This document shows positions 967 through 63,445 of a stretch of 64,000 nt of DNA, one piece after another (position 1 is the first letter of the stretch; each line of letters starts with the position of its first letter). The notes beneath the pieces were generated by a model. That model did not search any database and was not told the origin of the DNA. It was given only the letters and a program-made list of their open reading frames with translations. The position numbers and the translations under genes are program-made. Source of the stretch: Streptomyces deccanensis (GTDB lineage: Bacteria; Actinomycetota; Actinomycetes; Streptomycetales; Streptomycetaceae); contig NZ_CP092431.1 of NCBI RefSeq assembly GCF_022385335.1, positions 2,170,001-2,234,000 of the forward strand. Direction: 5' to 3'.

Positions 967-967
967 C

Positions 968-995: not shown

Positions 996-1049
996 CCACC
1001 GGGCCTGCGGTCGCCGACGGACCCCCGCACCCTTGAGCTATCAGGCGCC

Positions 1050-2545: not shown

Positions 2546-2597
2546 GATCGGTCTCCTCACGACGCGACACATCAGCAACGGCCACCAAGGGGCTCAG

Positions 2598-2615: not shown

Positions 2616-2650
2616 CCCAGAGAAAGGGCGCCACCACCACCCGCGCCCGA

Positions 2651-2678
2651 AGGGGCGCGGGGAACTGCGCGACCAGCC
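2651..2678 (-). repeat. Dispersed 28-bp intergenic repeat, copy 3
   Basis: Exact reverse complement of copy 1 (868-895). It sits in the divergent gap between the SDR gene and the NamZ-type gene. Confidence 0.9.
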
Positions 2679-2782
2679 ACACCCCACCCGCAGACGACAA
2701 ACCACCCGCGGAAGCGCTTAGCTTTCACCAAGCACCGCTTCCCGCGACAGCGACAGCGCCCCGCGACCCGGAGGTCACCCCC

Positions 2783-4042: not shown

Positions 4043-4154
4043 GGCCTGGTGGTCGGATCACGAGTCCGGTCGTACGTGACGTATGGCCATCTTTCGCCGT
4101 TGGCAGGACCATGCGCCTGAGCGCATCACCAACGGGGGCCGAAGGGGGCTCGTC

Positions 4155-46621: not shown

Positions 46622-48379
46622 GTGTCCGAAGAACCGGGCGGTGAACGGGTGATCGCGGGCCGCTACCGGCTGCTGACCCCGCTGGGCGAGGGCGGCATGG
46701 GCACCGTGTGGCGGGCCCGCGACGAGGTGCTGCACCGCGAGGTCGCCGTCAAGGAGGTGCGGGCGCCGGGCGGGATCGCGGTCTCCGACGTCGAGCGGAT
46801 GTACGCCCGGCTGGAGCGGGAGGCGTGGGCGGCGGCCCGGGTCGCCAACCGCAATGTCGTCACGGTGTACGACGTGGCGATGGAGGACGGCCGCCCGTGG
46901 ATCGTGATGGAGCTGGTGCGCGGCTTGTCGCTCGCCGACCTCCTGGACGGCGAGGGCCCCCTGTCTCCTCAGCGCGCCGCGCAGATCGGCGCCGAGGTGC
47001 TGTCCGCGCTGCGCGCCGCGCACGAGGCCGGGGTGCTGCACCGGGACGTGAAACCGGCCAACGTGCTCATCTCCAACGACAACCGGGTGGTGCTCACCGA
47101 CTTCGGCATCGCCACGGTCGAGGGCAGCTCCGCGCTGACCATGACCGGTGAGGTCATCGGCTCCCCGGAGTTCCTCGCCCCCGAGCGGGCGCTCGGCCGG
47201 GCGTTCGGCCCCGAGTCGGACCTGTGGTCGCTCGGGGTGCTGCTGTACGCGGCGGTCGAGGGCAACTCGCCGTTCCGGCAGAACACGCCGCTGAGCACCC
47301 TGCGCGCGGTGGTCGACGAGGAGCTTCCGCCGCCGCACCGGGCCGGTCCGCTGACACCGGTGATCGAGGGGCTGCTGCGCAAGGATCCGGCCGAACGGAT
47401 CCCCGCCGAGCAGGCCGAGCGGGACCTGCGGATCATCGGCGCCGGGGGCACCCCCTCCGCGGGAGGCGCCGCGTACTCCGACACGGCTCCCACCACCCCG
47501 TACAGCCCGACGGTGGCGGCCTTCCCGAGCCCGGGCGCGCGGACCGGACCGGGGCCGGGCACGAACGAGTTCGGGCCGCCGACCCCGCCGCACCCCACCC
47601 CGGCGGCGACACACCCGTCCCCGGTACCGACGCGTGGGCCGGACCGCAACCGCCGGGCCCTCGTCTTCCTGGTCGCGGGGATCGCGGCGATCGCCTTCGC
47701 CATCGCCGGTCTGACGTACGCCCTGGTCAACCGGGACGACGGCGGGAAGGACGGCACTCCGACCAACGGGGCGGGCACGGTGGGCGGCACCAACGACCAG
47801 ACGGGCGACGGCGGTACGGGCGAGGAACCCGGCGGCGGGGACGAGACGAGCGGCGACGCCACGCCCTCGGACACGCCCACCGACGAGGAGAAGCCGACCA
47901 CCGAACCGCCCGCGCAGTCGGTCAAGGTGACCGTCGAGGGTTCGAACACCGACTACACCGGCGCCTGTCCGCCGCAGGACGCCGAGGCGCCCACCTTCAC
48001 CGCGACGTTCACCGTGGGCAGCGTCCCCGTGGACGTCGACTACCGGTGGGTGGCGAGGAGCGGCGAGGTCGAGGACGAGGGCTGGAAGACCCTGTCGTTC
48101 GCGTCCGGTGGTGAGAAGACCAAGCAGGACCGGGTCGTCGTCTCGACCAACGGGAGCCACACGGACGAGATCAGCGTCGAGGTGCGCGGCCCGGTGAAGA
48201 CGGAGTCGAACAAGGTCGCGTTCTCGGTGACGTGCGAGTCGGAGGCCCCGACCACGGGCGGGACCTCCCCCTCCGACGACTCGGAGAACCCGGACGGCTA
48301 CAGCGACTCGGACGCCGACTACGACGAAGCCGGAGCCGGCGCCGGAGCCCTGAACGGGGCCGTCAGGCCGCGTTCCTGA
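46622..48379 (+). CDS. Serine/threonine protein kinase, PknB-like, with extracellular domain
   Basis: A receptor-type Hanks kinase of about 585 aa. The kinase domain (residues 15-275) has LGEGGMGTVW (P-loop), the Lys in REVAVKEVRA, VLHRDVKPANVLI, TDFGIATVEG and SDLWSLGVLLY. A Pro/Thr-rich juxtamembrane linker leads to one transmembrane helix (ALVFLVAGIAAIAFAIAGLTYALV). A disordered acidic segment and an Ig-like outer domain with two Cys (TGACPPQD and SVTCESE) follow. No PASTA repeats, so it is not a classic PknB. The GTG at 46622 has GGGGGA upstream; ATG 46616 is possible. Its 3' end overlaps the convergent lipase gene by 17 bp. Confidence 0.93.
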   Translation: MSEEPGGERVIAGRYRLLTPLGEGGMGTVWRARDEVLHREVAVKEVRAPGGIAVSDVERMYARLEREAWAAARVANRNVVTVYDVAMEDGRPWIVMELVRGLSLADLLDGEGPLSPQRAAQIGAEVLSALRAAHEAGVLHRDVKPANVLISNDNRVVLTDFGIATVEGSSALTMTGEVIGSPEFLAPERALGRAFGPESDLWSLGVLLYAAVEGNSPFRQNTPLSTLRAVVDEELPPPHRAGPLTPVIEGLLRKDPAERIPAEQAERDLRIIGAGGTPSAGGAAYSDTAPTTPYSPTVAAFPSPGARTGPGPGTNEFGPPTPPHPTPAATHPSPVPTRGPDRNRRALVFLVAGIAAIAFAIAGLTYALVNRDDGGKDGTPTNGAGTVGGTNDQTGDGGTGEEPGGGDETSGDATPSDTPTDEEKPTTEPPAQSVKVTVEGSNTDYTGACPPQDAEAPTFTATFTVGSVPVDVDYRWVARSGEVEDEGWKTLSFASGGEKTKQDRVVVSTNGSHTDEISVEVRGPVKTESNKVAFSVTCESEAPTTGGTSPSDDSENPDGYSDSDADYDEAGAGAGALNGAVRPRS

Positions 48380-49169
48380 ACACCGGCAGGTAGCCGCCCG
48401 ACTGGCCCGCGGCCTTCGGGTGGTACGACTCGCCGATGTTCAGCAGGTTGAGGCTGTGCAGCCACGCGCTGCCCGAGCACAGTTCGTGGCCGGTGAACGC
48501 GGAGCGCACGTCGCCGAAGGTGAACCCGTGGTCGGCGGCGCGTTTGGCGATCGCGGTGTTCAGGTAGTCGGCGGCGTTGTTGATGGCGGTCCGCTTGGCC
48601 TGGGAGAGGCCGGGGCAGGTGCCGCCGAGCTGGTAGAAGCGGGGGTAGCCGAGCACGACCACATGGGCGGCCGGTGCCTTCGCGCTGATCGACGAGTACA
48701 CCTTGTCGAGTTGACCGGGGAGCGTCGAGTCGACGTACGCCTTCGCCGTGTTGATGCGGGAGACGCAGGCGCTGTCGGACTGCAGGACGCAGGTCGTCAT
48801 GACGTCGGCGAAGCCGGCGTCGTTGCCGCCGACGGAGACGGAGACCAGCCCCGTGTCCGCACTAAGCGGCCCCAGTTGACTCGCCAGAACATCACCCGTT
48901 CGGGCGCCCGAGCAGGCCGTGAAGGCGAAGGTCGAGGGAGCGTTGGCGGCCGCCCAGAGGTAGGGGTAGGCCTTCGTGCTGCGCTTGCAGTCGCCGCTGG
49001 AGGAGAGGTAACTCCCCGCACCGACACCCGAGGAATAGGAGTCGCCGAGCGCCACATAGCCGGTGGCGGCGGCCTGTTGGGACGCCTGCGCCGTCGCGGC
49101 CCCGGTGAGGGTGACGCCGACGGCGAGGAGGAGCGAGGTCATGTATGCCGCAAGTCGGGAACGTCTCAT
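48363..49169 (-). CDS. Secreted SGNH/GDSL lipase
   Basis: A 268-aa secreted esterase/lipase. The signal peptide (AAYMTSLLLAVGVTLTGAAT, ending AQASQQ) covers about 1-33. SGNH blocks are GDSYSSGVG (Ser nucleophile), the Gly region with ACSGARTGDV, GGNDAGF (Asn oxyanion) and ESYHPKAAGQ (catalytic His). Six Cys in CKRS, ACSG, TTCV, ACVS, GTCPG and ELCSG positions suit three disulfides, as in the S. rimosus and S. coelicolor enzymes. GGGAGG lies close before the ATG. Its last codons overlap the end of the opposing kinase gene. Confidence 0.95.
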   Translation of the reverse strand: MRRSRLAAYMTSLLLAVGVTLTGAATAQASQQAAATGYVALGDSYSSGVGAGSYLSSSGDCKRSTKAYPYLWAAANAPSTFAFTACSGARTGDVLASQLGPLSADTGLVSVSVGGNDAGFADVMTTCVLQSDSACVSRINTAKAYVDSTLPGQLDKVYSSISAKAPAAHVVVLGYPRFYQLGGTCPGLSQAKRTAINNAADYLNTAIAKRAADHGFTFGDVRSAFTGHELCSGSAWLHSLNLLNIGESYHPKAAGQSGGYLPVFRNAA

Positions 49170-49483
49170 GGAACCTCCCTTTAGCAGGATCTCTGCCTCA
49201 ACCGTCGTAGCAACTACGCGTGTTGATCGGAAGTGTTCATGTCAATACTTTCCCGTCCGCAAGCGAACGTACCCACCGCGTTCCATCGGCGTTCGATTTC
49301 AGATACGTGACAGAAACATGACAACGCTTCAACTCTCTTGAGCTACACCCGTAGATCACCCAGTCTGCTTACAGCCGCGAGCGGAACGCGACGCTCCCGG
49401 CCGTGCGTGCGATCCCGCACGCGCCCCCCACGAACGCGCGCCCCACCCGGGCGCGCGTCGCCTATGAGGAGGAAACCCTCGTA
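49170..49483. other. Divergent promoter region of lipase and subtilisin genes
   Basis: 314 bp, noticeably more AT-rich than its surroundings between 49225 and 49345 (for example GTTCATGTCAATACTTTCCC). This fits two divergent promoters for secreted enzymes. GGAAGT-N12-ACTTTCC near 49229-49253 is an imperfect inverted repeat. No confident -35/-10 pair and no RNA gene. Confidence 0.45.
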
Positions 49484-50689
49484 ATGGCACACCTGCGTAG
49501 CAAGAACATCCGCGTCGCCGCCGTCACCACCGTGGCGACCGCCGCCCTGCTCGGCGGTCTGACCGCGCTCCCCGCCCAGGCCGCCCCGGCCGAGGGCAAG
49601 GTGCTCGCGGCCGGCTCCCCCACCGCCGTCAAGGACAGCTACATCGTCACGCTCAAGAAGGGCGCGGGCCTCAAGGCCGCGTCGAGCGCGGGCAAGGACC
49701 TGGTCGAGGAGTACGGCGGCACGGTGAAGCGGACCTTCAAGTCCGCGCTCAACGGCTACTCGGCGAAGCTCTCCGCGACCGAGGCGAAGAGACTCGCCGC
49801 CGACCCGGCGGTCGCCTCCGTCGAGCAGGACCAGGTCTTCACCGTCGACGCCACCCAGACCAACGCCCCGTGGGGCCTGGACCGCTCCGACCAGGCGTCG
49901 CTGCCGCTCTCCGGCACGTACACCTACCCGGACAGCGCGGGCAGCGGGGTGACGGCGTACGTCATCGACACCGGTGTGCGCATCTCGCACGCCCAGTTCG
50001 GCGGCCGGGCGGTCAACGGCTACGACGCCGTCGACGGCGACAGCGTCGCCCAGGACGGCAACGGCCACGGCACGCACGTCGCGTCCACGATCGCGGGCTC
50101 GACCTACGGCATCGCCAAGAAGGCGAAGATCGTGGCCGTGCGCGTGCTGAACAACGCCGGCTCGGGCACCACGGCCGGCGTCGTCGCGGGCATCGACTGG
50201 GTGACCGCGAACCACAGCGGCCCCTCCGTCGCCAACATGTCGCTCGGCGGCGGCGCCTCCACCGCCATCGACACGGCCGTCCGCAACTCCATATCCAGCG
50301 GTGTGACCTACGCCGTCGCGGCCGGCAACAGCAGCGCCAACGCCTCCTCGTACTCCCCGGCCCGCGTCACCGAGGCGATCACGGTCGGCGCCACCACCAA
50401 CACGGACGCCCGGGCGAGCTACTCCAACTTCGGCTCGGTCCTGGACATCTTCGCCCCGGGCTCGTCGATCACGGCCGGCTGGTACACCAGCGACACCGCG
50501 ACCAACACCATCTCGGGCACCTCGATGGCCACGCCGCACGTCGCGGGCGCGGCCGCCGTCTACCTGGCCGGCCACACCTCGGCCACCCCGGCCCAGGTCG
50601 CCTCGGCCCTGACCGCCGGCGCCGTGACCGGCAAGGTCACCAGCCCCGGCACCGGTTCCCCGAACCGCCTGCTGCAGATCGTCCCGTAA
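49484..50689 (+). CDS. Secreted S8 family serine protease (subtilisin-like)
   Basis: A 401-aa preproprotease. The signal peptide runs to about residue 34 (ALPAQAAPAEG), then an inhibitor-I9 propeptide (DSYIVTLKKGAGL to AVASVEQDQVF), then a mature subtilase of about 275 aa starting near TNAPWGLDR. The catalytic triad is in VIDTGVRISH (Asp), GNGHGTHVAS (His) and SGTSMATPHVAG (Ser), with the oxyanion Asn in AVAAGNSS. AGGAGG lies about 11 nt before the ATG at 49484. A strong terminator follows. No C-terminal pre-peptidase or binding domain. Confidence 0.96.
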   Translation: MAHLRSKNIRVAAVTTVATAALLGGLTALPAQAAPAEGKVLAAGSPTAVKDSYIVTLKKGAGLKAASSAGKDLVEEYGGTVKRTFKSALNGYSAKLSATEAKRLAADPAVASVEQDQVFTVDATQTNAPWGLDRSDQASLPLSGTYTYPDSAGSGVTAYVIDTGVRISHAQFGGRAVNGYDAVDGDSVAQDGNGHGTHVASTIAGSTYGIAKKAKIVAVRVLNNAGSGTTAGVVAGIDWVTANHSGPSVANMSLGGGASTAIDTAVRNSISSGVTYAVAAGNSSANASSYSPARVTEAITVGATTNTDARASYSNFGSVLDIFAPGSSITAGWYTSDTATNTISGTSMATPHVAGAAAVYLAGHTSATPAQVASALTAGAVTGKVTSPGTGSPNRLLQIVP

Positions 50690-50746
50690 GGGCGACCGCC
50701 CCTCTGTGAGGGTCCCTGTGTGAAAGTCCCCTTGTGAGAGAAGTTT

Positions 50747-50773
50747 CCCCGGAGGCGCGGGTCGCCTCCGGGG
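50747..50773 (+). terminator. Intrinsic terminator after the subtilisin gene
   Basis: CCCCGGAGGCG (50747-50757), loop CGGGT, CGCCTCCGGGG (50763-50773), then ATTCTTCG. Perfect 11-bp stem. Confidence 0.85.
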
Positions 50774-50921
50774 ATTCTTCGTGTGCGACCGCGCATCTCC
50801 TCGCGACGCGTGACAATCGGGCATACGGTCGGGCGTGGCGGGTCTCGACGTATTGACTCCCCCGCGCCGACTGAGCGACATTGAAGCCCGGCATCCGGCG
50901 CTTCAGGGGGCAAAGTCGCCA

Positions 50922-51311
50922 ATGCAGACCTCGGGTATCAAGCCATCGTTGTCAGACAGTGGGGGGCCGCTGCTGGCGGGCGTGGCCGCGGCCGTGGCGG
51001 GGGTCGGCGCGGTGCTCGCGCTCGCCGACACCGACTCCGTGCTGCGCGGCCCGTTCACCCTGTTCTTCCTCCTCGTCGCGCCAGGAGCCGCCATCGGGGC
51101 CGTACTGCGCGGACTGGAGCCGTTCGCCCGGGTCGTGACGTCCTTCGCGGGCGCGATCGCGGTGAACCTCCTCGTCGCCCAGGGCATGATCGCCACCCAC
51201 TCGTGGTCGGTGACCGGTGGGATCACGGCCGTGACCGTGATCAGCTCGCTCGTTCTCCTGCCGAGTCTGGTACGGCGCCCGGGCGCCCGTACGGAGAGAA
51301 GACGGACCTGA
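50922..51311 (+). CDS. Small integral membrane protein
   Basis: A 129-aa protein with four hydrophobic stretches (LLAGVAAAVAGVGAVLAL, FTLFFLLVAPGAAIGAVL, VTSFAGAIAVNLLVAQGM, GGITAVTVISSLVLLPSL) and a basic end (RRPGARTERRR). The ATG at 50922 (MQTSGIKPS) is preferred, with GGGGG 12 nt upstream; an in-frame GTG at 50835 is possible. It ends 3 nt before the FemAB/GNAT-like gene, so it is the likely first gene of the surface-glycan cluster. No family recognised. Confidence 0.75.
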   Translation: MQTSGIKPSLSDSGGPLLAGVAAAVAGVGAVLALADTDSVLRGPFTLFFLLVAPGAAIGAVLRGLEPFARVVTSFAGAIAVNLLVAQGMIATHSWSVTGGITAVTVISSLVLLPSLVRRPGARTERRRT

Positions 51312-51314
51312 GAC

Positions 51315-52436
51315 GTGGACATCAGTGTGTACCGCCCCGGCGAACTGACCGCCGCCGATCGGGCGGCCTGGACCGCTCTGCAGTCCAAGGCCCATCTCCA
51401 CGGCGCGCCCGAACTGGCGAACCCGTTCCTGTCCCCGGAGTTCGCCCTCGCGGTGGGCCGCTGCAGACGTGGGGTACGGATCGCGGTCGTACGGGAGGGC
51501 GGCGAACCGGCGGCCTTCTTCCCGTACCAGAGAACCACCGTCGGGGTGGGCAGAGCCGTCGGTCTCGGCCTCTCCGACTGCCAGGGCGTGGTCCACCGGC
51601 CGGGCTTCACCTGGGACCCCGAGGAACTGCTGCGTGCCTGCGGGCTCGCGGTGTGGGAGTTCGACCATCTGGCGGCGGGCCAGACGCCGTTCGCCGCTCA
51701 TGTCACCGACAGCTTCCCGTCGCCGGTCATGGATCTGGAGCAGGGCTACGAGGCGTATCTGGGCCAGGTGCGGGCCCGCTCGCCGAAGTTCCTCCGCTCG
51801 ACGTTCGCCAAGGAGCGCAGGCTCGGCCGCGCGGTGAACGAGGTGCGTTATGTGCACGACGAGCGGGACCCGGGGGCCCTGCGCACCCTGATGGCCTGGA
51901 AGTCGGCGCAGTACCGCAGGACGGGGCGCAGCGACCGCTTCGCGCACCCGTGGATCACCCGCCTGGTGCACCAGCTCTTCCACACCCGCTCCGCCTCCTT
52001 CGCCGGCCAGCTGTCCGTGCTGTACGCGGACGGCAAGCCGGCCGCGGCTCATTTCGGACTGCGCTCCGAGCGGGTACTGACATGCTGGTTCCCGGCGTAC
52101 GACCCGGCGTTCGCGAGGTTCTCGCCGGGCCTGCTGCTGCATCTGCACATGGCCGAGGAGGGCGCCGCCGACGGCATCGCCTACCTGGACCTGGGCCGGG
52201 GGCAGAAGCAGTACAAGGACTCCCTGAAGACCCGGGAGATCTCGGTGTCGGAGGGGTGGGTCACCCGGCGCCATCCGGTGGCGCTCGGGCACCGGGCGCG
52301 ACGGGCGCCGGTCAGGGCCTTGCGGAACGCTGTGCTGGCCCGACCGGAACTGTTCGAACCTGCCGACAGATTGTTGAAACGGATGGGGAAAATCCGGTCG
52401 GGAGGTCAGCTAACGGACACATCAACAAAAACGTGA
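51315..52436 (+). CDS. GNAT/FemAB-like acyltransferase (CelD/BcsL-type)
   Basis: A 373-aa cytoplasmic protein of the GNAT superfamily branch found in polysaccharide and cellulose clusters (Acetyltransf_6, CelD/BcsL). VREGGEPAAFFPYQRT is in the first half. The acetyltransferase-like half contains LSVLYADGKPAAAHFGLRSE, then SPGLLLHLHMAEEGAADG and YLDLGRGQKQYKDSLKT, the family's most conserved stretch. GTG start, 3 nt after the membrane-protein gene. It may acylate sugar precursors. It is followed by a palindrome and a long leader before the glycosyltransferases. Confidence 0.8.
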   Translation: MDISVYRPGELTAADRAAWTALQSKAHLHGAPELANPFLSPEFALAVGRCRRGVRIAVVREGGEPAAFFPYQRTTVGVGRAVGLGLSDCQGVVHRPGFTWDPEELLRACGLAVWEFDHLAAGQTPFAAHVTDSFPSPVMDLEQGYEAYLGQVRARSPKFLRSTFAKERRLGRAVNEVRYVHDERDPGALRTLMAWKSAQYRRTGRSDRFAHPWITRLVHQLFHTRSASFAGQLSVLYADGKPAAAHFGLRSERVLTCWFPAYDPAFARFSPGLLLHLHMAEEGAADGIAYLDLGRGQKQYKDSLKTREISVSEGWVTRRHPVALGHRARRAPVRALRNAVLARPELFEPADRLLKRMGKIRSGGQLTDTSTKT

Positions 52437-52453
52437 GACCTCGTACGAGGTCT
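52436..52453. terminator. Perfect 18-bp palindrome after the GNAT/FemAB-like gene
   Basis: AGACCTCGTACGAGGTCT is fully self-complementary and starts at the last base of the stop codon. The opposite strand follows it with CGTTTTTG, so it would terminate better leftward than rightward. Confidence 0.5.
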
Positions 52454-52790
52454 TGCCATATGGTCTCAATCATCAATACCGTCTTGCATCGCTGTACATA
52501 AACCCGCATCGGTCCGTCGGCACATGCTCCTAGGGGAGGGCTCAAGGAGCGCGGCGGTCCCGGCGCGGGGCGCGGTAGGGGGGTGCCGTGCTCGGTGAGC
52601 ACACCGTTCATCGAGTCGTGCCGCGCGACCGACTGCCGAGTCGCGACAGTCGGCCGGCTTTTTGCCAGCTCACCCGGCACGCACGGAGATCCACTTCGCC
52701 GTGCCGTGAGTGAGAACCCCCCTTTCGAACCGGACAACATTCCGAACCACCCAGGGGCGGGTGGTTCACCGGACGAGAGGGACCAGACTC
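52437..52790 (+). promoter_or_regulatory. 354-bp leader region of the glycan operon with two hairpins
   Basis: A possible promoter is TTGCCA (52453-52458), 18 bp, TACCGT (52477-52482). Downstream are GTGCTC-GGT-GAGCAC (52588-52602) and CCGACTG-N11-CAGTCGG (52629-52653), followed by CCGGCTTTTT. The second looks like a terminator or attenuator inside a long 5' leader. No open frame with a ribosome site was found. Confidence 0.5.
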
Positions 52791-53624
52791 ATGAGCTCAG
52801 TTCTGCGCCCGGCGATATCCGAATCCGATACCGAGAGCGCCGAGACGTCGGCGCTCGCGAAGTACCGGCCGATCTCCCACCACCTGGCCATCGCACCGCC
52901 GGTGAGCGTGGTGATCCCCGCCATGAACGAGGCGGAGAACCTGCCGTACGTCTTCAAGACGCTGCCCGGCTGGATCCACGAGGTGGTCCTGGTCGACGGC
53001 AACTCCACCGACAACACGGTCGAGGTGGCCCGCGAACTGTGGCCGGACGTCAAGGTCGTCCCGCAGCAGGGCAAGGGCAAGGGGGACGCCCTGATCACCG
53101 GCTTCGAGGCGTGCACCGGTGACATCATCGTGATGGTCGACGCGGACGGCTCGGCCGACGGGCACGAGATCGTGTCGTACGTCTCCGCCCTCGTCTCGGG
53201 CGCCGACTTCGCCAAGGGCTCCCGCTTCGCCAACGGCGGCGGCACCGACGACATGACCCTGATCCGCAAGCTCGGCAACTGGGCGCTGTGCACCACCGTG
53301 AACCGCAAGTTCGGCGCCCGCTACACCGACCTGTGCTACGGCTACAACGCGTTCTGGCGGCACTGCCTCGACAAGATCGACCTCGACTGCACCGGCTTCG
53401 AGGTGGAGACCCTGATGAACATCCGGGTGGTCAAGGCGGGCCTGAGGGTGCAGGAGATCCCCAGCCACGAGTACCTGCGCATCCACGGCGCGAGCAATCT
53501 GCGGGCCGTCCGCGACGGACTGCGGGTGCTGAAGGTGATCCTCAAGGAGCGCTCCAACCGGCGCGCCCTGCGCCGCCGTTCGGCCCCGACGATGCTCACC
53601 GCCGGGCGGGGAGAGTCGTCTTGA
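52791..53624 (+). CDS. Family 2 glycosyltransferase (DPM1-like)
   Basis: A 277-aa GT-A enzyme. The fold is marked by PPVSVVIPAMNEAENLPYV near residue 36, EVVLVDGNSTDNT, GKGKGDALITG and the metal-binding VMVDADGSADG. The sequence resembles polyprenol-phosphate sugar synthases of the DPM1 group. No C-terminal membrane helices are seen, so it acts at the cytoplasmic face. The basic C-terminal tail (KERSNRRALRRRS) could bind membrane. It is first of four overlapping genes; the next starts at an overlapping TTG. Confidence 0.9.
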   Translation: MSSVLRPAISESDTESAETSALAKYRPISHHLAIAPPVSVVIPAMNEAENLPYVFKTLPGWIHEVVLVDGNSTDNTVEVARELWPDVKVVPQQGKGKGDALITGFEACTGDIIVMVDADGSADGHEIVSYVSALVSGADFAKGSRFANGGGTDDMTLIRKLGNWALCTTVNRKFGARYTDLCYGYNAFWRHCLDKIDLDCTGFEVETLMNIRVVKAGLRVQEIPSHEYLRIHGASNLRAVRDGLRVLKVILKERSNRRALRRRSAPTMLTAGRGESS

Positions 53625-54634
53625 ACGAGCCGACCGTCTCGGTCGTGATCTGTGTGTACACCGAGGACCGCTGGGAGGACATCCTCGCGGCGGTCTCCTC
53701 GGTGCGCGCACAGTCCCGGCCGGCCCTGGAGACGCTCCTGGTGGTGGACCACAACCGGTCCCTGCTGGAGCGTCTGACCGGGGAGTACAAAGAGGTCCAT
53801 GAGGTGCGCGTGCTCGCCAACGCGGGCCCCCGGGGGCTGTCCGCCGGCCGCAACACGGGCATCGCCGCCTCGTACGGGGAGATCATCGCCTTCCTCGACG
53901 ACGACGCCGTGGCCGAGCGCGACTGGCTGCGCTACTTCGTCCAGGGATACGCCGACCCCCGGGTCATGGCCGTCGGCGGCCGTACGGTGCCCGTGTGGGC
54001 GTCCGGCCGCCGCCCGGCCTGGTTCCCCGAGGAGTTCGACTGGGTGGTGGGCTGCGCCTACAAGGGGCTGCCCGGCGGTGTCGCCGAGGTCCGCAACGTC
54101 CTCGGCGGCAACGCCTCCTTCCGCCGCGGCGCCTTCGACGCGGCCGGGGGCTTCGCCACCGGTATCGGCCGCGACGGCGACAAGCGCCCGCTGGGCTGCG
54201 AGGAGACGGAACTGTGCATCCGGCTCTCCCGGGCCCGGCCGGACGCGGTGCTGCTGCTCGACGACCGGGCGGTGATCCACCACCGGGTGCCGGACGTGCG
54301 GGAGCGCTTCGCGTACTTCCGCGCGCGCACCTACGCCGAAGGGCTGTCGAAGGCGCTGGTGGCGCGCAGCGTGGGCACGGACAAGGGGCTGGAGTCGGAG
54401 CGCCGCTACACCACCCGGGTACTGCCCGCCGGGGTGGCGCGCGGTCTGCGGGACGCGCTGCTCGGCCGCGCGGGCGGCGCGGGACGTGCGGGCGCGATCG
54501 TCACGGGGGTGGCGGCGGCGGCCGGGGGGTACGTTGTGGGGAGCGTCCGGGCCCGCAGGGGCGAGGTCACGTTCTCGGTCGGCGAGATCCCGGGCGGCCC
54601 GGTCGGCAAGGGGGGCGAGGGGGGCTCGTCATGA
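53621..54634 (+). CDS. Family 2 glycosyltransferase, TTG start
   Basis: A 337-aa GT2. SVVICVYTEDRWEDILAAVS is at the N-terminus, LSAGRNTGIAA and IIAFLDDDAVAERDW mark the nucleotide-sugar and DxD sites, and GGNASFRRGAFDAAGGF with GCEETELCIRLS is the acceptor/catalytic region. A C-terminal hydrophobic stretch (AGAIVTGVAAAAGGYVVGS) may anchor it. A TTG at 53621 overlapping the previous TGA is the only start that fits GGGGAGAG 5 nt upstream and the protein's beginning. Its stop overlaps the next ATG by 4 nt. Confidence 0.9.
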   Translation: MNEPTVSVVICVYTEDRWEDILAAVSSVRAQSRPALETLLVVDHNRSLLERLTGEYKEVHEVRVLANAGPRGLSAGRNTGIAASYGEIIAFLDDDAVAERDWLRYFVQGYADPRVMAVGGRTVPVWASGRRPAWFPEEFDWVVGCAYKGLPGGVAEVRNVLGGNASFRRGAFDAAGGFATGIGRDGDKRPLGCEETELCIRLSRARPDAVLLLDDRAVIHHRVPDVRERFAYFRARTYAEGLSKALVARSVGTDKGLESERRYTTRVLPAGVARGLRDALLGRAGGAGRAGAIVTGVAAAAGGYVVGSVRARRGEVTFSVGEIPGGPVGKGGEGGSS

Positions 54635-55461
54635 CGGAAACGACGGGGACGGCGGGGCCGGCGGGGACGGCTGCGGCCGTGCCGATCCTGATGTACCACG
54701 CGGTGTCCACCGCGCCGAACGACGCCACCAAGGACCTGTCGGTGACCCCGGAGGCCTTCGCGGAACAGCTGGCGCTCATCGACGACCTGGGCCTCACCCC
54801 GGTGAACACCGCCGACCTGGCGGCAAGTTGGCGGCACGGCCGCCCGCTGCCCGCCCGGCCCGTGCTGATCACCTTCGACGACGGCTACGCGGGCGTGCAC
54901 CGGCACGCCCTGCCCGTCCTCGCCAAACACGGCTTCGCGGCCTCGCTGTTCGTCACCACGGGCTGGATCGAGGGCCCCCACGACAACGGCGAGGCCCTCG
55001 ACACCATGCTCGACTGGGACCAGGTCCGCGAGCTCGCCGACCACGGCGTGGAGATCGGCGGGCACAGCCACACCCATCCCCAGCTCGACATGCTGGACGA
55101 CGACCGGCTCCGGTTCGAGCTGCGGCGCTGCCGGCAGATCGTCGCCGACGAACTGGGCACCCGGCCCGTCTCGTTCGCCTACCCGTACGGCTACTCCAGC
55201 CGCCGGGTGCGCGTGGCGGTGCGCGAGACGGGCTTCGCCCAGTCGCTCGCCGTCGGCAACGCACTGGCCCGGCGCGCACAGGGCCCGTACGCGCTGCGGC
55301 GGGTGACCGTGCGGCGTTCCACGGACCTCGCGGAGTTCGAGCGGCTCGTCGAGGGCCGTGCGATCGCCCGCACCTTCGCCCGGGACCGTGCCCTGACCAA
55401 GGGGTACGCCATGGTCCGAAGAGCACGACAGGTCCGGAAGGCCATCCGTTCCCGTGTCTGA
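54631..55461 (+). CDS. Polysaccharide deacetylase family protein (CE4)
   Basis: A 276-aa NodB-type deacetylase without a signal peptide. VPILMYHAVS begins the domain. LITFDDGYAGVH is the metal/catalytic Asp motif, GGHSHTHPQLDML the HxxxH motif, and FAYPYGYSSRRVR the later conserved loop. It would remove N-acetyl groups from a sugar polymer or lipid-linked intermediate. ATGA overlap with the upstream glycosyltransferase and 8-nt overlap with the flippase fusion indicate one operon. The absence of an export signal suggests a cytoplasmic, precursor-level reaction. Confidence 0.9.
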   Translation: MTETTGTAGPAGTAAAVPILMYHAVSTAPNDATKDLSVTPEAFAEQLALIDDLGLTPVNTADLAASWRHGRPLPARPVLITFDDGYAGVHRHALPVLAKHGFAASLFVTTGWIEGPHDNGEALDTMLDWDQVRELADHGVEIGGHSHTHPQLDMLDDDRLRFELRRCRQIVADELGTRPVSFAYPYGYSSRRVRVAVRETGFAQSLAVGNALARRAQGPYALRRVTVRRSTDLAEFERLVEGRAIARTFARDRALTKGYAMVRRARQVRKAIRSRV

Positions 55462-58400
55462 CACGACGACCACCACGGCTCACGAGGCCGAGGACACCAC
55501 GACCGAGGAGACCGGGCCAGGGCCGGGCCCCGGCCGCAGGCTGCGCCTGCCCGGGCTGGGCAAGGGGGCAGGGGGCGACCAGCTGTTCCGCAACGCCTAC
55601 GCCCTGATGCTGAACACCGGTATCTCGGCCGTCCTCGGCCTCGGCTTCTGGCTGGCCGCCGCCCGCTACTACACCGAAGCCTCGGTCGGTCAGGGCTCCG
55701 CCGCGATCGCCGCGATGAAGCTCCTCGCCGGGCTCACCGCGCTGACGCTGACGGGTGCCCTGGCGCGGTTCATCCCGGTCGCGGGCCGGGACACCGGCCG
55801 GCTGATTTTCCGCACGTACGCGGGCAGTGCGGTGGTCGTGGCGCTGGCGGCGGGCGTGTTCCTGCTGACGCTGGGCCTGTGGGGGTCGTCGTACAGCTTT
55901 CTGCACGATCCGCTCTACGCCGTGTTCTTCGTGCTCGCGGTGGTCGCCTGGTCGACGCTGACGCTCCAGGACGGGGTGCTCACCGGGCTGCGCAGCGCGG
56001 TGTGGGTGCCGGTCGGCAACACCGTGTTCTCGGCGGTGAAGCTGGTGCTGCTGGTGGTGTTCGCCGCCGCGATCCCGACCATGGGCGTCTTCGTGTCCTG
56101 GGTCGCGGCGATCGCGATGTCCGTGCTGCCGCTGGGCTGGCTGGTGTTCCGACGGCTCATCCCGGCCCATGTGCGGGCCACCGAGGACCACGCGCACCCG
56201 CCGTCGCTGCGGGAGATCGGCCGCTTCCTCGCCGGTGACTACACGGGCTCCCTCTTCTCGCTCGCGGTCGTCTATCTGGTCCCGGTGATCGTCGCCGCGC
56301 AGGTCGGCTCCGCCGACAACGCGTACTTCTACATCACCACCACCATCGGCGGCACCGTCAATCTGCTCGCCATCAACATGGGTGCCTCGCTGACCGTGGA
56401 GGGCGCCCACGACCCGGCACGACTGGCCGCCAACACCCGGGCCGCGCTGAAGCGGATGGCCCGGATCATGCTGCCGGTGTGCGCGGTGCTGTTCTTCGGG
56501 GCGCCCTGGATCCTGGCCGTCTTCGGGCAGGCCTACGCGGACGCGGCGACCCCGCTGCTGCGCTGGTTCGCGGTCGGCGCGGTTCTGCGGGTCGTCATGG
56601 AGACGTACTTCGCGGTGCTGCGCGCCCAGAGCCGCACCGCCGGACTCGCCTGGCTGCAGGGACTGTTGTGCGCCCTGGTCCTCGGCCTGACCCTGGTCCT
56701 GCTCCCCCGGATGGGGCTGACCGGCGCGGGCGTCGCCGAGATCTCCAGCCTCGCGGTGATCGTGCTGATCGCCGCGCCGCGGCTGTACCGGATCCTGCGC
56801 ACCGCCGGGCCCGCCGAGGTACCCGCGGACGCGGCGCCCGACGGCGATCTCGCCGACCTGGGCCGGATGGCGTCCGCCGCGAAGCAGAGCGGCGCCTGGT
56901 CCCGGCGCCTGGACTCCGACACCCTCGCCCTCGGCCTCCATGTCGACTTCGACCACCTGGAACGCCGCCCGGACGTACGGCCCGGCCCGGGCACCCCGCC
57001 CACCGGCACCGCGCTGCCGCGGGGGGAGCACCGGCCGACCTGGGCCCAGGACCGGCCCACCCGTCCGCCCGAGGACGCCCCGCTCGAAGAGGCCGCAGGC
57101 GGGCCGGACCTCGCACGAGAGACCGCAGGGCAGCCGGACTTCGCACGAGAGGCCGAAGGGCAGCCGGACTTCGCACGAGAGGCCGAGAAGCTGGAGAAGT
57201 CCGTACGGGAGCCGGTGGCACCCGAGGCCGAGGAGACGCCGTCCGGCCGGCACACACCTCGGGTGTCCCTCCGCGAACGCCTCTCGCACCCCACGATCAC
57301 CGGGGTGGTCCTCGGCTTCCTGCTGCTCTCCGCGCTGCTCCTCTACTGGGTGCCCGCGCTGGCGCTGGACGACTCCGACCTGGACCGCATGGGCGGCCTC
57401 GGCCTGATCTCCGTGCTGCCGACGCCGACCCTGGTCGGCGCTGGCCTGCTGGCGGTCGTGTTCGCCGCGCTGCTGTGGCCGGCCCGGGAGCATCGCGCGC
57501 TGCTGCTGATCACGCTGCTGGCCACCGTGTTCTCACTGCACGCGCTGCCCGCCGTGATCGAGACCGAACCCCGCTTCGCGACGGCCTGGCAGCACCTGGG
57601 CTTCATCGACTACATCGACCGCACCGGCACGGCCGTACCCGACCTGGACGCCCGGTGGAGCTGGCCGGGGTTCTTCGCGGCGGCGGCGTTCGTGGCGCGG
57701 GCCTGCGGGGTCACCGACTTCACCGAGATCATCCGCTGGTGGCCGACGGCCGTCCAACTCCTCTATCTGGCCCCGATGTTCCTCCTCGCCCGCCATATGC
57801 GGGCGAGCTGGCGCGCCCGGTGGACAGGGGTCTGGATCTTCGTCCTGAGCGGCTGGGTGGGCCAGGACTACTTCTCCCCCCAGGGCTTCACCTACCTCCT
57901 CTACCTGGTCTTCGTCGCGATCCTGCTGGTCTGGTTCCGCGCCCCGCACATGCTGTGGGGCACGGTGCGCCCCGGCGAGGCGGAGGTCGAGCCGACGAAC
58001 CGCCGGCAGCGCGCGGTGCTCCTCGCGGTCCTGATCGCGCTGTACGCGGCGACGGTCCCGGCCCACCAGCTCACCCCGTTCGTGATGCTGGGTGTCCTCG
58101 CGGCCCTCGTCCTGGTCGGCCGCTCGGAACTGCGCGGCCTGCCCATCCTGTTCGCCGTGCTGGTCGCCGTCTGGGTGGGCTTCCTCGCCGAGCCGTACTG
58201 GTCGGGCCACTTCGACGAACTCTTCGGCGGGGTCGGCGGGGTCGGCGGGAACGTCACCTCCTCGGTCTCCGGCCGGATCGGCGAGGGCAGTTCGACCCAC
58301 AAACTCGTGCTGTACGCGCGCGTGGCGCTCGCCGGCTCGGTCATGCTCCTGGCTTGCCTCGGCTTCTGGCGCCGCCGCGCGAACAAATACCGCGAACGCT

Positions 58401-59302
58401 CCCTGCTCGTGCTCACGTTCGTGCCGTTCCTGGGCTTCGGCATGCAGTCGTACGGCGGTGAGATGGCCCTGCGGGTCTTCATGTTCGCGCTGCCGGGTGC
58501 CGCGCTGCTGGGCGCGCTCGCCCTCTTCCCGCGCACCGGCGTCACCGACGGGGAACGCGAGAAGGACCGAAGGAACCTCGGCCCGCCGGCTGCCCTGATG
58601 GCCGGTCTCGTCCTCATCGGCGGCTTCCTGGTCGCCCGCTGGGGCAACGAGCCCTTCGAGCGCGTCCGGCCGGGCGAGGTCGCCGCCATGGAGTACGTCT
58701 ACGCCCACGACGACCCGACGGTACGGCTGCTGTGGCTCAGCGACGACCCGGTGAACAACGTGACGCCGGCGATGCCGTGGGGCGCCCGGGACATGGAGAA
58801 GGTCGAGTACGTGCCCACGCTCGCGCCGGTGGATCCGGTCCTGGTGTCCGGTGTGGCCAAGGCGCTCAAGGACGCGGGCGCGGGCTCGTTCCTGATCGTC
58901 AACCGCAGCCAGGTCACCAACCTCCAGATGGACGCCGGTTACCCCGGGAACTGGGAGTCCCGGCTCATCGAGAACCTCGACAGGCGCGCCGACGTGGAGC
59001 AGGTCTTCGCCAACGACGACGCCACGATCTTCGCCCTGCGCGACCAGCCCGGAAAGGCCCCGGATCCCGATCCCGGCCCGATCGGCCCCCAGGTCACCTG
59101 GACCCCGTGGTCGGTGGTGGGCGGCCTGGCCGCGATCGCCCTGATCGTGCTGCTGAGCGTCCGCGAGATGGTCCGGGTGGCGGTCCGCCCCGGCGTACGT
59201 CAACTCCGCTGGCTGCAGAGCAGTTTCTGGTTCAGCCTGCCGCTACTGGCCCTGCTGCTGGCGTCACTGGTGCAGAGGTTCCTGACGATGGGCTCGCAGT
59301 GA
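55454..59302 (+). CDS. Flippase (MOP/Wzx-like) fused to a large multi-span membrane enzyme
   Basis: A 1282-aa fusion. Residues about 40-460 form a polysaccharide flippase: 12-14 membrane spans, with RNAYALMLNTGISAVLGLGF, ALARFIPVAGRDTGRLI and FGAPWILAVFGQAYADAATP. Residues about 460-620 are a disordered linker with three 10-residue repeats (AGQPDFAREA type). Residues about 620-1282 hold 10 or so spans and a large outer loop (VGQDYFSPQGFTYLLYLVF, PAHQLTPFVMLGVLAALVLV, GNVTSSVSGRIGEGSS). They end with an outer domain and a last membrane helix, and resemble polytopic glycosyltransferases/polymerases. GTG start with an 8-nt overlap. The flippase half is confident and the second half is unassigned. 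Confidence 0.82.
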   Translation: MSDTTTTTAHEAEDTTTEETGPGPGPGRRLRLPGLGKGAGGDQLFRNAYALMLNTGISAVLGLGFWLAAARYYTEASVGQGSAAIAAMKLLAGLTALTLTGALARFIPVAGRDTGRLIFRTYAGSAVVVALAAGVFLLTLGLWGSSYSFLHDPLYAVFFVLAVVAWSTLTLQDGVLTGLRSAVWVPVGNTVFSAVKLVLLVVFAAAIPTMGVFVSWVAAIAMSVLPLGWLVFRRLIPAHVRATEDHAHPPSLREIGRFLAGDYTGSLFSLAVVYLVPVIVAAQVGSADNAYFYITTTIGGTVNLLAINMGASLTVEGAHDPARLAANTRAALKRMARIMLPVCAVLFFGAPWILAVFGQAYADAATPLLRWFAVGAVLRVVMETYFAVLRAQSRTAGLAWLQGLLCALVLGLTLVLLPRMGLTGAGVAEISSLAVIVLIAAPRLYRILRTAGPAEVPADAAPDGDLADLGRMASAAKQSGAWSRRLDSDTLALGLHVDFDHLERRPDVRPGPGTPPTGTALPRGEHRPTWAQDRPTRPPEDAPLEEAAGGPDLARETAGQPDFAREAEGQPDFAREAEKLEKSVREPVAPEAEETPSGRHTPRVSLRERLSHPTITGVVLGFLLLSALLLYWVPALALDDSDLDRMGGLGLISVLPTPTLVGAGLLAVVFAALLWPAREHRALLLITLLATVFSLHALPAVIETEPRFATAWQHLGFIDYIDRTGTAVPDLDARWSWPGFFAAAAFVARACGVTDFTEIIRWWPTAVQLLYLAPMFLLARHMRASWRARWTGVWIFVLSGWVGQDYFSPQGFTYLLYLVFVAILLVWFRAPHMLWGTVRPGEAEVEPTNRRQRAVLLAVLIALYAATVPAHQLTPFVMLGVLAALVLVGRSELRGLPILFAVLVAVWVGFLAEPYWSGHFDELFGGVGGVGGNVTSSVSGRIGEGSSTHKLVLYARVALAGSVMLLACLGFWRRRANKYRERSLLVLTFVPFLGFGMQSYGGEMALRVFMFALPGAALLGALALFPRTGVTDGEREKDRRNLGPPAALMAGLVLIGGFLVARWGNEPFERVRPGEVAAMEYVYAHDDPTVRLLWLSDDPVNNVTPAMPWGARDMEKVEYVPTLAPVDPVLVSGVAKALKDAGAGSFLIVNRSQVTNLQMDAGYPGNWESRLIENLDRRADVEQVFANDDATIFALRDQPGKAPDPDPGPIGPQVTWTPWSVVGGLAAIALIVLLSVREMVRVAVRPGVRQLRWLQSSFWFSLPLLALLLASLVQRFLTMGSQ
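57091..57180 (+). repeat. 30-bp coding tandem repeat in the fusion linker
   Basis: Three 30-bp units ending at 57120, 57150 and 57180. The last two are almost identical (GGGCAGCCGGACTTCGCACG core) and encode GQPDFAREAE. Confidence 0.85.
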
Positions 59303-59305
59303 GGC

Positions 59306-60724
59306 TCACCGCTTCAGCCACTTCACCTCGTACGCGGCCATGTCGAACTTCCGACCGTCGATGTCGGCGCTGATCTTCCGGTCGAGGGTGTTGACGACGA
59401 GTACGGCCTTGTCGTCGGCCAGCACGCGCACGTTCGGCTTGTCGTCCGCCGCGACGGACACCGTCTCGTACGTCGTCCCCGGCGGGAACTCCTCGCTGAA
59501 CCGGGACAGCAGCCCGTACATGGGCAGTTCGCGTCCGCCGTCACGCTTGTCGGTCGGCGTCCACAGACAGCCGGGGCACTCGCCGGTCTTCTCTTCCGGG
59601 TTCCAGTAGAACCCGGAGGTGGCACCGCCCTTGGCCATGGCCATCAGCCCGGAGGCCTGGACGGCGACCCGGCGGTTCTCGGACCAGCCGTGCCGGTTGT
59701 CGTTCCCGTCGGCCGGTTCGACGTAGTACTCGGCCCACCACAGCGGCAGATCGCCGGACCGCTCCCGCACCCACCGGCTCACGTCCGTGAACTTGTCGGT
59801 CGCCGCGAACTCGTCCGGGACCAGCTCGTCGTCCCGGGTGTAGCTGGATCCGTCGACCACCACGAAGTCGGCGCCGACCTTGTGCTCGTTCCAGTAGTCG
59901 AAGGCGTCGAGGATCCGCCGGTCCATGGCGCCCCACGGCCCCTTGAGCCGTGTCGACGCGTCCTGCTCCTGGCGTGGGTCGACGCTGTCCATGACCAGGT
60001 AGGGCCCGCCGACCATGATGTCCTCGTCGACCTTCTTCAGGGCCTTGTGGACGAGGTTGTACAGCTCGGTGTAGCCCTCGTAGTCCCAGCGGGCCTCCGC
60101 GTCGTTCCAGAAGCCCTTGAACTCGTTCCAGACGATGAAGTGCCGTACGTCCGGGTAGCGCTTGGCGACGGTGGCGGCGAGGTCGGCGTAGTCCGCGAAG
60201 TGCTCGGGCTCGGGCGCGGTCTCCAGCGCGGCCTGGCTCCAGTCGGTCCGGTCGGCGCCCGGTCTGCCGCCCTTCATCCAGTCGGGCGCGCAGCACAGGG
60301 TGACGACGGGCGTGCCGCCGGTGGCGCGGACGAAGTCGATGCGCCGGTCCATCTCCTCGAAGTCGTAACGCCCCTCGACGGGCTCGGGGTTGCCCGCGCC
60401 CCAGCCCATGATGTGCTGGATCTGCGGCAGGGGCCGCTCGGCGAGCCGCTCCTCGACGCGCTCGACAGCCGTCCCGCTGCCCGCGTCCGCGCTGAACTGG
60501 GTGTGGGTGAAACCCCAGCCCACACTGGGTCCGGTGTCCCCGGGCGGGGTCGCGGGCGTGCCGTGCACCTTGTCGCCGTCGGGGGTGGTGCCGGCGCTGC
60601 TGCCGCCCCCGGAAAGTGTGTTGAGCAGGGTCACGACGAGGGCCAGCGCGGCCACCCCCACGCCCAGCAGCGCGCCGAGTCGCCACCGCCGGTCCCCCGC
60701 AATCCACCCATGACGTCCCATCAT
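59306..60724 (-). CDS. Membrane-anchored GH39-like glycoside hydrolase
   Basis: A 472-aa clan-A (beta/alpha)8 hydrolase. The N-terminal hydrophobic anchor (LGALLGVGVAALALVVTLLN) is followed by a Gly/Ser/Thr/Pro linker. The barrel has WGAGNPEPVEGRYDFEEMDR, the acid/base Glu in HFIVWNEFKGFW and the probable nucleophile Glu in LWWAEYYVEPAD, the layout of GH39 xylosidase/iduronidase relatives. It converges on the flippase fusion with only 3 bp between stop codons. It probably trims or releases the glycan made by that cluster. ATG 60724 or 60721; no clear ribosome site. Confidence 0.8.
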   Translation of the reverse strand: MMGRHGWIAGDRRWRLGALLGVGVAALALVVTLLNTLSGGGSSAGTTPDGDKVHGTPATPPGDTGPSVGWGFTHTQFSADAGSGTAVERVEERLAERPLPQIQHIMGWGAGNPEPVEGRYDFEEMDRRIDFVRATGGTPVVTLCCAPDWMKGGRPGADRTDWSQAALETAPEPEHFADYADLAATVAKRYPDVRHFIVWNEFKGFWNDAEARWDYEGYTELYNLVHKALKKVDEDIMVGGPYLVMDSVDPRQEQDASTRLKGPWGAMDRRILDAFDYWNEHKVGADFVVVDGSSYTRDDELVPDEFAATDKFTDVSRWVRERSGDLPLWWAEYYVEPADGNDNRHGWSENRRVAVQASGLMAMAKGGATSGFYWNPEEKTGECPGCLWTPTDKRDGGRELPMYGLLSRFSEEFPPGTTYETVSVAADDKPNVRVLADDKAVLVVNTLDRKISADIDGRKFDMAAYEVKWLKR

Positions 60725-60790
60725 GGGCAACAGTAACCGCGCGGGCCCGCCCTGGGGGAGGTTCCGCCGGTGAACTCCTGGGCGATATGA

Positions 60791-60845
60791 CGGCTCACGG
60801 GCGGCTCACGGGCGGCTCACGGGCGGCTCACGGGCGGCTCACGGG
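60791..60845. repeat. 11-bp tandem repeat, five perfect copies
   Basis: CGGCTCACGGG repeated exactly five times (60791-60845), with a decayed sixth copy (CGCATCACGCG) following. Intergenic, between the GH39-like and AAA-ATPase starts. Confidence 0.95.
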
Positions 60846-60904
60846 CGCATCACGCGCCGACACCACCGGCGCGCAGCGGAAAGCGGATGCACGGGGAGCC
60901 CTCG

Positions 60905-62017
<1,113 letters not shown>

Positions 62018-62057
62018 GATCTCTAGGCGGTTCCGCTCTGAGTGTTTTCATGGATGT

Positions 62058-62825
62058 ATGACCTTGTTCGTCGGCACGTCGGGGTGGCAGTACAAGGACT
62101 GGCGGGGCGCCGTCTACCCGGAGGGCTGCCCCACCCGGCTGTGGCTGGAGGAGTACGCGGCGCGGTTCGCGACGGTCGAGCTCAACAACGCGTTCTACCG
62201 GCTGCCGACGAAGGAGAACTTCGAGGCGTGGCGGCAGAGGGTGCCGGCGGACTTCGTGGTCGCGGTGAAGGCGAGCCGGTACCTGACCCACATCAAGCGC
62301 CTGCGGGACCCCGAGGAGCCGGTGCACCGCCTGATGAGCCACGCGGAGGGGCTGGGCGACCGTCTGGGCCCGATCCTGCTCCAGCTCCCCCCGACGCTAC
62401 GGGCCGACCCCGCTCTCCTGGACGCCTGCCTGGGCTGCTTCCCCTCGGGCACCCGGATCGCGGTCGAGCCCCGCCACGACTCGTGGTGGACCGCCGAGGT
62501 CCGCGAGGTCCTGGAGTCCCGGGGCGCGGCCCTGTGCTGGGCGGACAGCCACTCCCGCCCGGCCACGCCGCTCTGGCGCACCACCGACTGGTCCTACCTC
62601 CGCCTCCACCAGGGCCGAGCCCACCCCTGGCCCCACTACGGCGAGCGGTCCCTCTCCACCTGGGCCCACCGCATCGCCGACACCTGGCCCGCCACCGCCG
62701 ACGCCTACGTCTACTTCAACAACGACCCCCACGCGGCGGCGGTGCAGGACGCGACGACATTCGCGAGGACAGCGAAAAAAGCGGGCCTACGACCAACCCG
62801 AACCCCGGAGCACGTCCCCCGGTAA
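62058..62825 (+). CDS. DUF72 domain-containing protein
   Basis: A 255-aa cytoplasmic protein of the DUF72 (YecE-like) family, a TIM-barrel fold with no settled function. Hallmarks are LFVGTSGWQYKDWRGAVYP at the N-terminus, FATVELNNAFYRLP, FVVAVKASRYLTHIKRL, LGPILLQLPP, VEPRHDSWW and YVYFNNDPHAAAVQDA near the C-terminus. The length matches the family. Single gene, 40 bp after the AAA ATPase on the same strand, possibly co-transcribed. Confidence 0.93.
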   Translation: MTLFVGTSGWQYKDWRGAVYPEGCPTRLWLEEYAARFATVELNNAFYRLPTKENFEAWRQRVPADFVVAVKASRYLTHIKRLRDPEEPVHRLMSHAEGLGDRLGPILLQLPPTLRADPALLDACLGCFPSGTRIAVEPRHDSWWTAEVREVLESRGAALCWADSHSRPATPLWRTTDWSYLRLHQGRAHPWPHYGERSLSTWAHRIADTWPATADAYVYFNNDPHAAAVQDATTFARTAKKAGLRPTRTPEHVPR

Positions 62826-63005
62826 GCCGCCGGCACCCACCATGGGCCCACAGCCCCGCGCCCCGGCCTCTCGCGCCGCTCCGCTCGCGGCTGTCGTGCC
62901 CGGCTGACGTGTGTCCGCCGGTTCACTGATTCCGCCGCGACGGTGCTCAGCCACGGCGGCGTGGTTCGGCGGTGCCGGACTTCGCTCAGCCCTCGGCGGC
63001 GCCCG

Positions 63006-63374
63006 CTACTCCGCGTACGCGGCCCGCAGGGCGTCCCGGGCCGCCGCCAACGCCTCCGTCTCGCTGAGCCCCAGTCGGCGCGCCCGCTCCGCGTACGCCC
63101 CCGCCGCCACCGCCGCCTCACGCTCCGCGGCGGAGCCGGCCGCGGCCACGAACGTCCCGTTGCGCCCCCGCGTCTCGATCACCCCGTCGGTCTCCAGCGC
63201 CCGGTACGCCTTGGCGACGGTGTTGGCCGCGAGCCCCAGCTGCTCGGCGAGCCCCCGTACGGTCGGCAACCGGTACCCCACGGGCAGCGCCCCGGAGCGG
63301 GCCTGTTCCGAGATCTGGGCGCGCACCTGCTCATAGGGCGCGCCCCCGTCCACGATGCGAATCTTCAAGGTCAC
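63006..63374 (-). CDS. GntR family regulator, YtrA-type
   Basis: A 122-aa short GntR repressor. The winged helix covers APYEQVRAQISEQARSGALP, VGYRLPTVRGLAEQLGLAAN and TVAKAYRALETDGVIETRGR; only a short C-terminal dimer helix follows (LGLSETEALAAARDALRA). That length and layout define the YtrA group, usually repressors of neighbouring ABC or membrane genes. GTG at 63374. It is divergent from a GNAT acetyltransferase gene with 71 bp between starts. The target is probably itself and that gene. Confidence 0.9.
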   Translation of the reverse strand: MTLKIRIVDGGAPYEQVRAQISEQARSGALPVGYRLPTVRGLAEQLGLAANTVAKAYRALETDGVIETRGRNGTFVAAAGSAAEREAAVAAGAYAERARRLGLSETEALAAARDALRAAYAE

Positions 63375-63445
63375 GCGGCGATTGTCCCGTACCCGCCGGA
63401 AAATCGGAGGCGACTCCCGGCGCCGCCCGCGTAGCGTGCCCACCC

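Follow-up and report, generated by a model that had tools for sequence, protein, structure and literature searches.

The nearest described logic to the gene set reported here is that of two kinds of three-component system. In the GtrA/GtcA systems a lipid-phosphate sugar is made inside the cell, flipped, and moved outside by a GT-C enzyme, with a small SMR-type flippase and one cytosolic glycosyltransferase (PMC7389260). In the O antigens of Citrobacter youngae, a polyprenyl-phosphate sugar synthase, a MATE-family flippase, and a GT-C enzyme of family GT136 occur as three separate proteins handling pentofuranose sugars (PMC11127046). A compact set of genes from Streptomyces deccanensis, lying in a 64,000-nucleotide window of a 10.1-Mb single-contig assembly (contig NZ_CP092431.1, positions 2,170,001 to 2,234,000 of the forward strand; all coordinates below are positions in this window), brings the same three kinds of component together, as judged from protein families, structure modelling, and co-occurrence among genomes. 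It has a MOP flippase and two cytosolic glycosyltransferases, unlike the GtrA/GtcA systems, and it departs from the GT136 system in a flippase–GT-C fusion, a second GT2 enzyme, a CE4 polysaccharide deacetylase, and a leader RNA. We think it rather probable that these genes encode a transmembrane glycosylation system made up of two GT2 enzymes (GT2a and GT2b), the CE4 enzyme, the flippase half of the fusion, and a GT-C half that would transfer a lipid-linked sugar outside the membrane.

More partial likenesses are found elsewhere. The wps-3 cluster of Actinoplanes missouriensis likewise groups a CE4 enzyme, a BioF2-like acetyltransferase, and Wzx, but its Wzx and O-antigen-ligase-like protein are separate, it contains Wzz and other sugar genes, and no fusion is reported in the relevant portion of that paper (PMC13390465). 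HexSDF of Clostridioides difficile likewise combines a glycosyltransferase, a CE4 enzyme, and a flippase to give an amino sugar; in contrast, its product is described as diradylglycerol-linked, its flippase is MprF-like, its three genes do not include a GT-C, and deacetylation is placed after flipping (PMC10128005). In the archaeal AglJ/AglG/AglB route the parallel is one of enzymes, since GT2a and GT2b resemble AglJ and AglG and the C half of the fusion has the AglB fold, but the two GT2 enzymes score under the family cut-offs and the C half lacks the WWD string. To our knowledge neither a CE4 enzyme nor such a fusion is part of that archaeal route. No description of this gene set or of a flippase–GT-C fusion was found in the open-access literature searched.

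The fusion protein and its two halves

The fusion gene (55454..59302, + strand, start GTG) encodes 1282 amino acids. A long open frame alone is no proof of fusion in GC-rich DNA, but both halves lie in one frame in 77 of the 80 named Streptomyces loci (the misses are L027, L041, and L053, the last two being cut by contig ends), and on these grounds a gene-calling artefact was dropped as an explanation. By its modelled structure the N half (55559..56833, + strand) is a MOP flippase. The model, built on an alignment of 45 rows at 78–88% identity, has a predicted local distance difference test score (pLDDT) of 65.2 and a predicted template modelling score (pTM) of 0.66, and its fold search returned 46 matches at E <= 0.001, with WzxE at the top, followed by MATE proteins, MurJ, and one entry titled 'protein A'. 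The Pfam family Polysacc_synt was unmatched in the window protein, and a relative, P0034, reached 26.5 bits against a cut-off of 28.2. The assignment of this half to the flippases, made in a preliminary description of the window, is thus borne out by the MOP fold with WzxE as first match. A linker (56834..57268, + strand) separates the two modelled stretches, and within it two tandem GQPDFAREAE units were noticed at 57128–57187 (+ strand).

For the C half, whose core occupies 57479..59050 (+ strand; residues 71–594 of P0004), the fold search ranks STT3 and AglB first, and the closest structures overall are oligosaccharyltransferases and ArnT; residues 1–70 and 605–677 are barely covered by the fold search. 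It has the multi-helix membrane fold with an outer loop, EL1, that characterizes GT-C enzymes, and the outer loop that follows its first core helix carries an acidic residue, E98, which is conserved in 93 of 102 rows and would be the catalytic one. GT-C motifs are strictly kept. The closest relatives of the C half are 98% identical in other Streptomyces species and 95% in S. caniscabiei. Sequence searches were silent: no Pfam family, STT3 included, matched at E <= 0.1, no NCBIfam model matched, and against PDB sequences a single-sequence search gave no relative and a 113-row profile gave four chance matches. The WWD string, which we take to be an oligosaccharyltransferase motif, is absent from the C half. 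WaaL, Wzy, and RodA-type proteins do not appear among the fold rows listed, an absence that is uninformative either way, and Pfam likewise gave no Wzy or WaaL match.

By its modelled fold, then, the C half is a GT-C glycosyltransferase without a described sequence family. The preliminary description had held that it belonged to no recognised family, which stands for sequence (Pfam, NCBIfam, and PDB) and falls for fold. A transporter or other non-glycan protein, whose detection would have counted against a glycan function, was dropped as an explanation on the strength of the fold matches, which instead favour the glycan reading. The same description had suggested that this half could be the polymerase. 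Because its fold lies near ArnT and the oligosaccharyltransferases and because GT2a is synthase-like, transfer outside the cytoplasm is favoured over a Wzy polymerase, and the combination points to a lipid-linked sugar being moved to an acceptor outside the membrane.

Companion genes and the GT2a leader

Upstream of the fusion and on the same strand lie GT2a (52791..53624, start ATG at 52791, PF00535), GT2b (53621..54634, start TTG, PF00535), and the CE4 gene (54631..55461, PF01522, 99.9 bits against a cut-off of 23.1). The overlaps are of 4 nucleotides between GT2a and GT2b (TTGA), 4 between GT2b and CE4 (ATGA), and 8 between CE4 and the fusion. The gene for a GH39-like hydrolase (59306..60730, − strand) faces the fusion gene, their stops being 3 bp apart (59303–59305). 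A small membrane protein of 129 amino acids (50922..51311, + strand) and a FemAB/GNAT-like acyltransferase (51315..52436, + strand; PF13480, 148 bits, cut-off 22) precede them, and the latter is separated from GT2a by 354 bp with no assigned gene, which suggests that the four genes from GT2a to the fusion make up one unit and the two before them a second. The named genes, overlaps, and stop gap are all as the preliminary description had claimed, and its picture of a compact surface-glycan machine holds up in relatives, where the gene order is kept.

Among solved proteins GT2a is closest to dolichol-phosphate mannose synthase (E 4e-21) and to ArnC, and it is likely, from sequence comparison, to be a polyprenyl-phosphate sugar synthase, with GT2b likely a second glycosyltransferase. 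The CE4 protein carries TFDD at residue 81 and HSHTH (HxxxH) at residue 145, presumably the motifs of its family. The claim that it lacks an export signal agrees with the window protein, in which none is visible, and with 29 of 87 relatives, in which an in-frame stop lies no more than 60 codons before residue 17, so that there is hardly space for such a signal; the other 58 are uninformative. Deacetylation therefore probably precedes flipping, as had been proposed. The FemAB-like gene is an optional member, present in 51 of the 80 named loci (cut loci account for 6 of the 29 absences), and its product may acylate the amine freed by CE4, a pairing that recalls NodB and NodA. A hint at acylation also comes from the distant locus L116, where a flippase-relative frame (358–4236, − strand) runs on into AMP-binding, carrier-protein, and thioesterase domains. 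This frame adjoins genes for a 3-dehydroquinate synthase II and a DeoC-type aldolase. The small membrane protein has no Pfam match, is present in 73 of the 80 named loci, and gives a weak profile match to N-terminal extensions that three standalone GT-C relatives carry, in L112, L114, and L116.

The hydrolase scores above the Pfam GH39 cut-off (PF01229, 36 against 26 bits), its solved relatives are GH39 beta-xylosidases, and it has WNE, which we take to be a GH39 motif, at residues 201 and 280. An N-terminal hydrophobic stretch would suit a protein that is probably anchored outside the cell. Where a genome has a close C-half relative the gene is there too (10 of 10), and where it has none the gene is absent (0 of 16); since four unfused loci (L134–L137) carry it too, it tracks this group of GT-C enzymes and not the fusion itself.

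A candidate leader RNA (52720..52781, + strand, within a conserved stretch at 52715–52793) precedes GT2a. Its predicted lower stem is formed by CCCUUUCG and CGAGAGGG, lies over the GT2a ribosome-binding site (52775–52781), and encloses an inner hairpin with both-sided changes in 4 of its 7 pairs. In a set of 37 chosen rows, of which 36 are distinct, 99.1% of cells pair, and sliding the alignment by one column lowers pairing to 54–62%. The 10 cells changed on both sides were matched by 0 of 500 shuffles, and the 4 pairs so changed by 4 of 500. Single sequences clearly beat their shuffles in 4 of 6 cases (z −2.3 to −3.9), the others being L130 (z −0.9) and L132 (z +0.4). A pattern for the 3' part of the leader matches ahead of GT2a in 83 of 93 loci; six cut loci and the unfused L134–L137 make up the rest. 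A covariance model found one strong copy in each of six fused-type and three split genomes tested (split genomes are defined below), none in two unfused genomes (G664 and G092), and none in three of four genomes without the system, the fourth (G413) having a 24-bit match far from these genes. No Rfam family matches the leader. That it can fold over the ribosome-binding site is supported in part, and the hairpin may regulate translation of GT2a.

The system is flanked by a lipase gene (48363–49169) and an AAA gene (60887–62017). Between the lipase gene and the system is a gene for a secreted protease (49403–50689, + strand), which by eye we take to be of the S8 type, and which is present in 52 of the 80 named loci. 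ARAGORN found no tRNA in the window, and nothing in 48000–64000 reached an Rfam gathering score. A palindrome just 3' of the FemAB-like gene (52437–52452) recurs in one of 12 relatives inspected, there elsewhere in the locus.

Distribution and history of the fusion

Of 246 Streptomyces genomes, 134 gave C-half matches at E <= 1e-4. Matches were also found in 31 of 61 genomes sampled across the family and in 17 of 396 across the phylum. Ninety of the 134, including the window's own genome, match near full length at 63–100% identity, two of these with an in-frame TAG. Four genomes (G480, G458, G507, and G526) have the match in at least two pieces, possibly decaying copies or assembly gaps. GT2a and GT2b adjoin the fusion in 74 of the 80 named Streptomyces loci, the six misses being contig-end cuts.

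Eight Streptomyces genomes, which we call split, have as their sole C-half relative a standalone GT-C that belongs to another subfamily (about 35% identity), is intact in all eight, and is located near a flippase gene whose product shares 56–58% identity with the N half. Among 28 Streptomyces genomes examined, GT2a (E <= 1e-60) was found in all 18 that have a C-half relative, 10 of them close and 8 split, but in 0 of the 10 that lack one; since GT2a and the GT-C are on different contigs in two of the split genomes and at least about 1.5 Mb apart in the other six, this co-occurrence is not due to gene neighbourhood. The flippase follows the same pattern: all 8 split genomes have it, and none of the 10 genomes without the system does. 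In the three split genomes inspected, the leader, GT2a, GT2b, and CE4 lie at the window's own site, between lipase and AAA. These two genes are 11.7 kb apart in the window, and in genomes without the system their matched stretches are separated by 145–322 bp in eight of nine cases and by 2.8 kb in the ninth, a tenth genome having no AAA match. This almost vacant site, the split genomes, and the leader before GT2a had no place in the preliminary description.

Beyond Streptomyces, 6 of 10 loci from other genera of the Streptomycetaceae (L130–L139) are fused, with 58–61% C-half identity. The other four (L134–L137; 43–46% identity) have long frames, yet the flippase and GT-C are separate genes in different frames. 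Distant Actinomycetota also have separate genes, as in L105, where a 454-residue flippase adjoins a 649-residue GT-C. A tree of the GT-C sequences places the eight truly fused rows in a single clade (100/99) whose nearest kin are the unfused L137, L134, and L135. In the flippase tree the nine fused rows group only weakly (76/54), and long branches meet. The eight split flippases form a clade of their own (100/100), branching before the fused ones and the unfused L134–L136. In all eight split genomes the flippase frame extends 258–420 residues beyond the flippase domain, and in four of them a profile detects a GT-C stub there (L109:7104-9611, L111:6039-9554, L158:7081-9441, and L159:3211-6627). 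The stub frames lack QDY, HQLTP, and YGGE, and two have a bare WPG string. The split and fused states would be explained by a single old fusion that later underwent decay and fission, and equally by two fusions.

Proposed route and competing readings

In the route that we favour, GT2a would load a first sugar on polyprenyl phosphate, GT2b would add a second, and CE4 would remove an N-acetyl group in the cytosol to leave a free amine, a possible target for re-acylation by the optional FemAB-like enzyme. The MOP half would then flip the lipid-linked sugar and the tethered GT-C half would pass it, directly from flipping to transfer, to an outside acceptor, most likely an envelope polymer. Outside the cell the GH39-like hydrolase may trim or recycle the product, and the leader hairpin over the ribosome-binding site may gate translation of GT2a. 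The folds, conservation, and co-occurrence behind this scheme were computed; substrates, order of steps, acceptor, and regulation we infer.

Several observations weigh against it. The N-half model is of medium quality, the best NCBIfam models for GT2a and GT2b, AglJ and AglG, score 140 against a cut-off of 325 bits and 230 against 440, so that membership in those equivalog families is not claimed, and tblastn did not find CE4 in 7 of 13 distant loci or GT2a in 4 of 13. The genomes behind the co-occurrence counts are not phylogenetically independent, their kinship being uncorrected, and the near-invariant lower stem of the leader has no covariation support and could be a DNA site. The authors of the C. 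difficile study put deacetylation after flipping and leave the other order open (PMC10128005), and the Actinoplanes genes for CE4, a BioF2-like acetyltransferase, Wzx, and an O-antigen-ligase-like protein are read as a Wzx/Wzy system (PMC13390465).

That last comparison lends weight to a Wzx/Wzy-type system here too, in which GT2a and GT2b would build a repeat unit, the Wzx-like N half would flip it, the C half would polymerise a partly deacetylated exopolysaccharide, and the GH39-like enzyme would trim it. Trimming of an exopolysaccharide by a GH39 enzyme is known for PslG, and the presence of CE4 and the distribution of the hydrolase both suit this idea. We nevertheless regard it as unlikely: the eight proteins scanned include no recognisable initiating phosphoglycosyltransferase, GT2a resembles a monophosphate-type synthase, and the fold matches are to GT-C enzymes of the STT3/ArnT kind, the lack of WaaL or Wzy among them being itself uninformative. 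Those fold matches, topped by STT3 and AglB, would sit well with protein glycosylation, the C half being an oligosaccharyltransferase that places a flipped disaccharide on exported proteins in parallel with AglJ–AglG–AglB; AglJ and AglG are the best-scoring models for the two GT2 enzymes, and AglJ and Dpm share one clade in a published tree (PMC4973528). However, the AglJ and AglG scores fall short of their cut-offs, the C half has neither an STT3 Pfam match nor the WWD string, and a common GT-C fold tells little about the acceptor, so that we consider this improbable. A free membrane amino-glycolipid as end product, with the GT-C half merely extending the sugar chain, seems very improbable to us. 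It has its model in C. difficile, where a glycosyltransferase, a CE4 enzyme, and an MprF-like flippase yield an aminohexosyl glycolipid, but that three-gene set as described has no GT-C (PMC10128005), whereas here the GT-C motifs are strictly kept and an intact GT-C stands near the flippase gene in all eight split genomes.

A more daring version of extracytoplasmic transfer, unlikely as a whole, would have a single-chain flippase-transferase hand a de-N-acetylated polyprenyl-monophosphate disaccharide from flipping to transfer, as a bacterial parallel to AglJ–AglG–AglB through which many Streptomyces would decorate wall polymers or exported proteins, with GT2a gated by a new leader that covers its ribosome-binding site and may sense product or precursor.

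If the transmembrane glycosylation system that we favour is real, a large share of Streptomyces, the 134 of 246 sampled genomes with some C-half relative, would have this surface glycan route, and the membrane enzyme family at its base would be one for which our searches found neither a model in Pfam or NCBIfam nor a sequence relative in the PDB. The fusion would make the coupling of flipping to transfer directly testable, the split genomes with their stubs would illustrate the re-tooling of a machine of this kind, and the leader RNA would give a handle on the timing of glycan synthesis.

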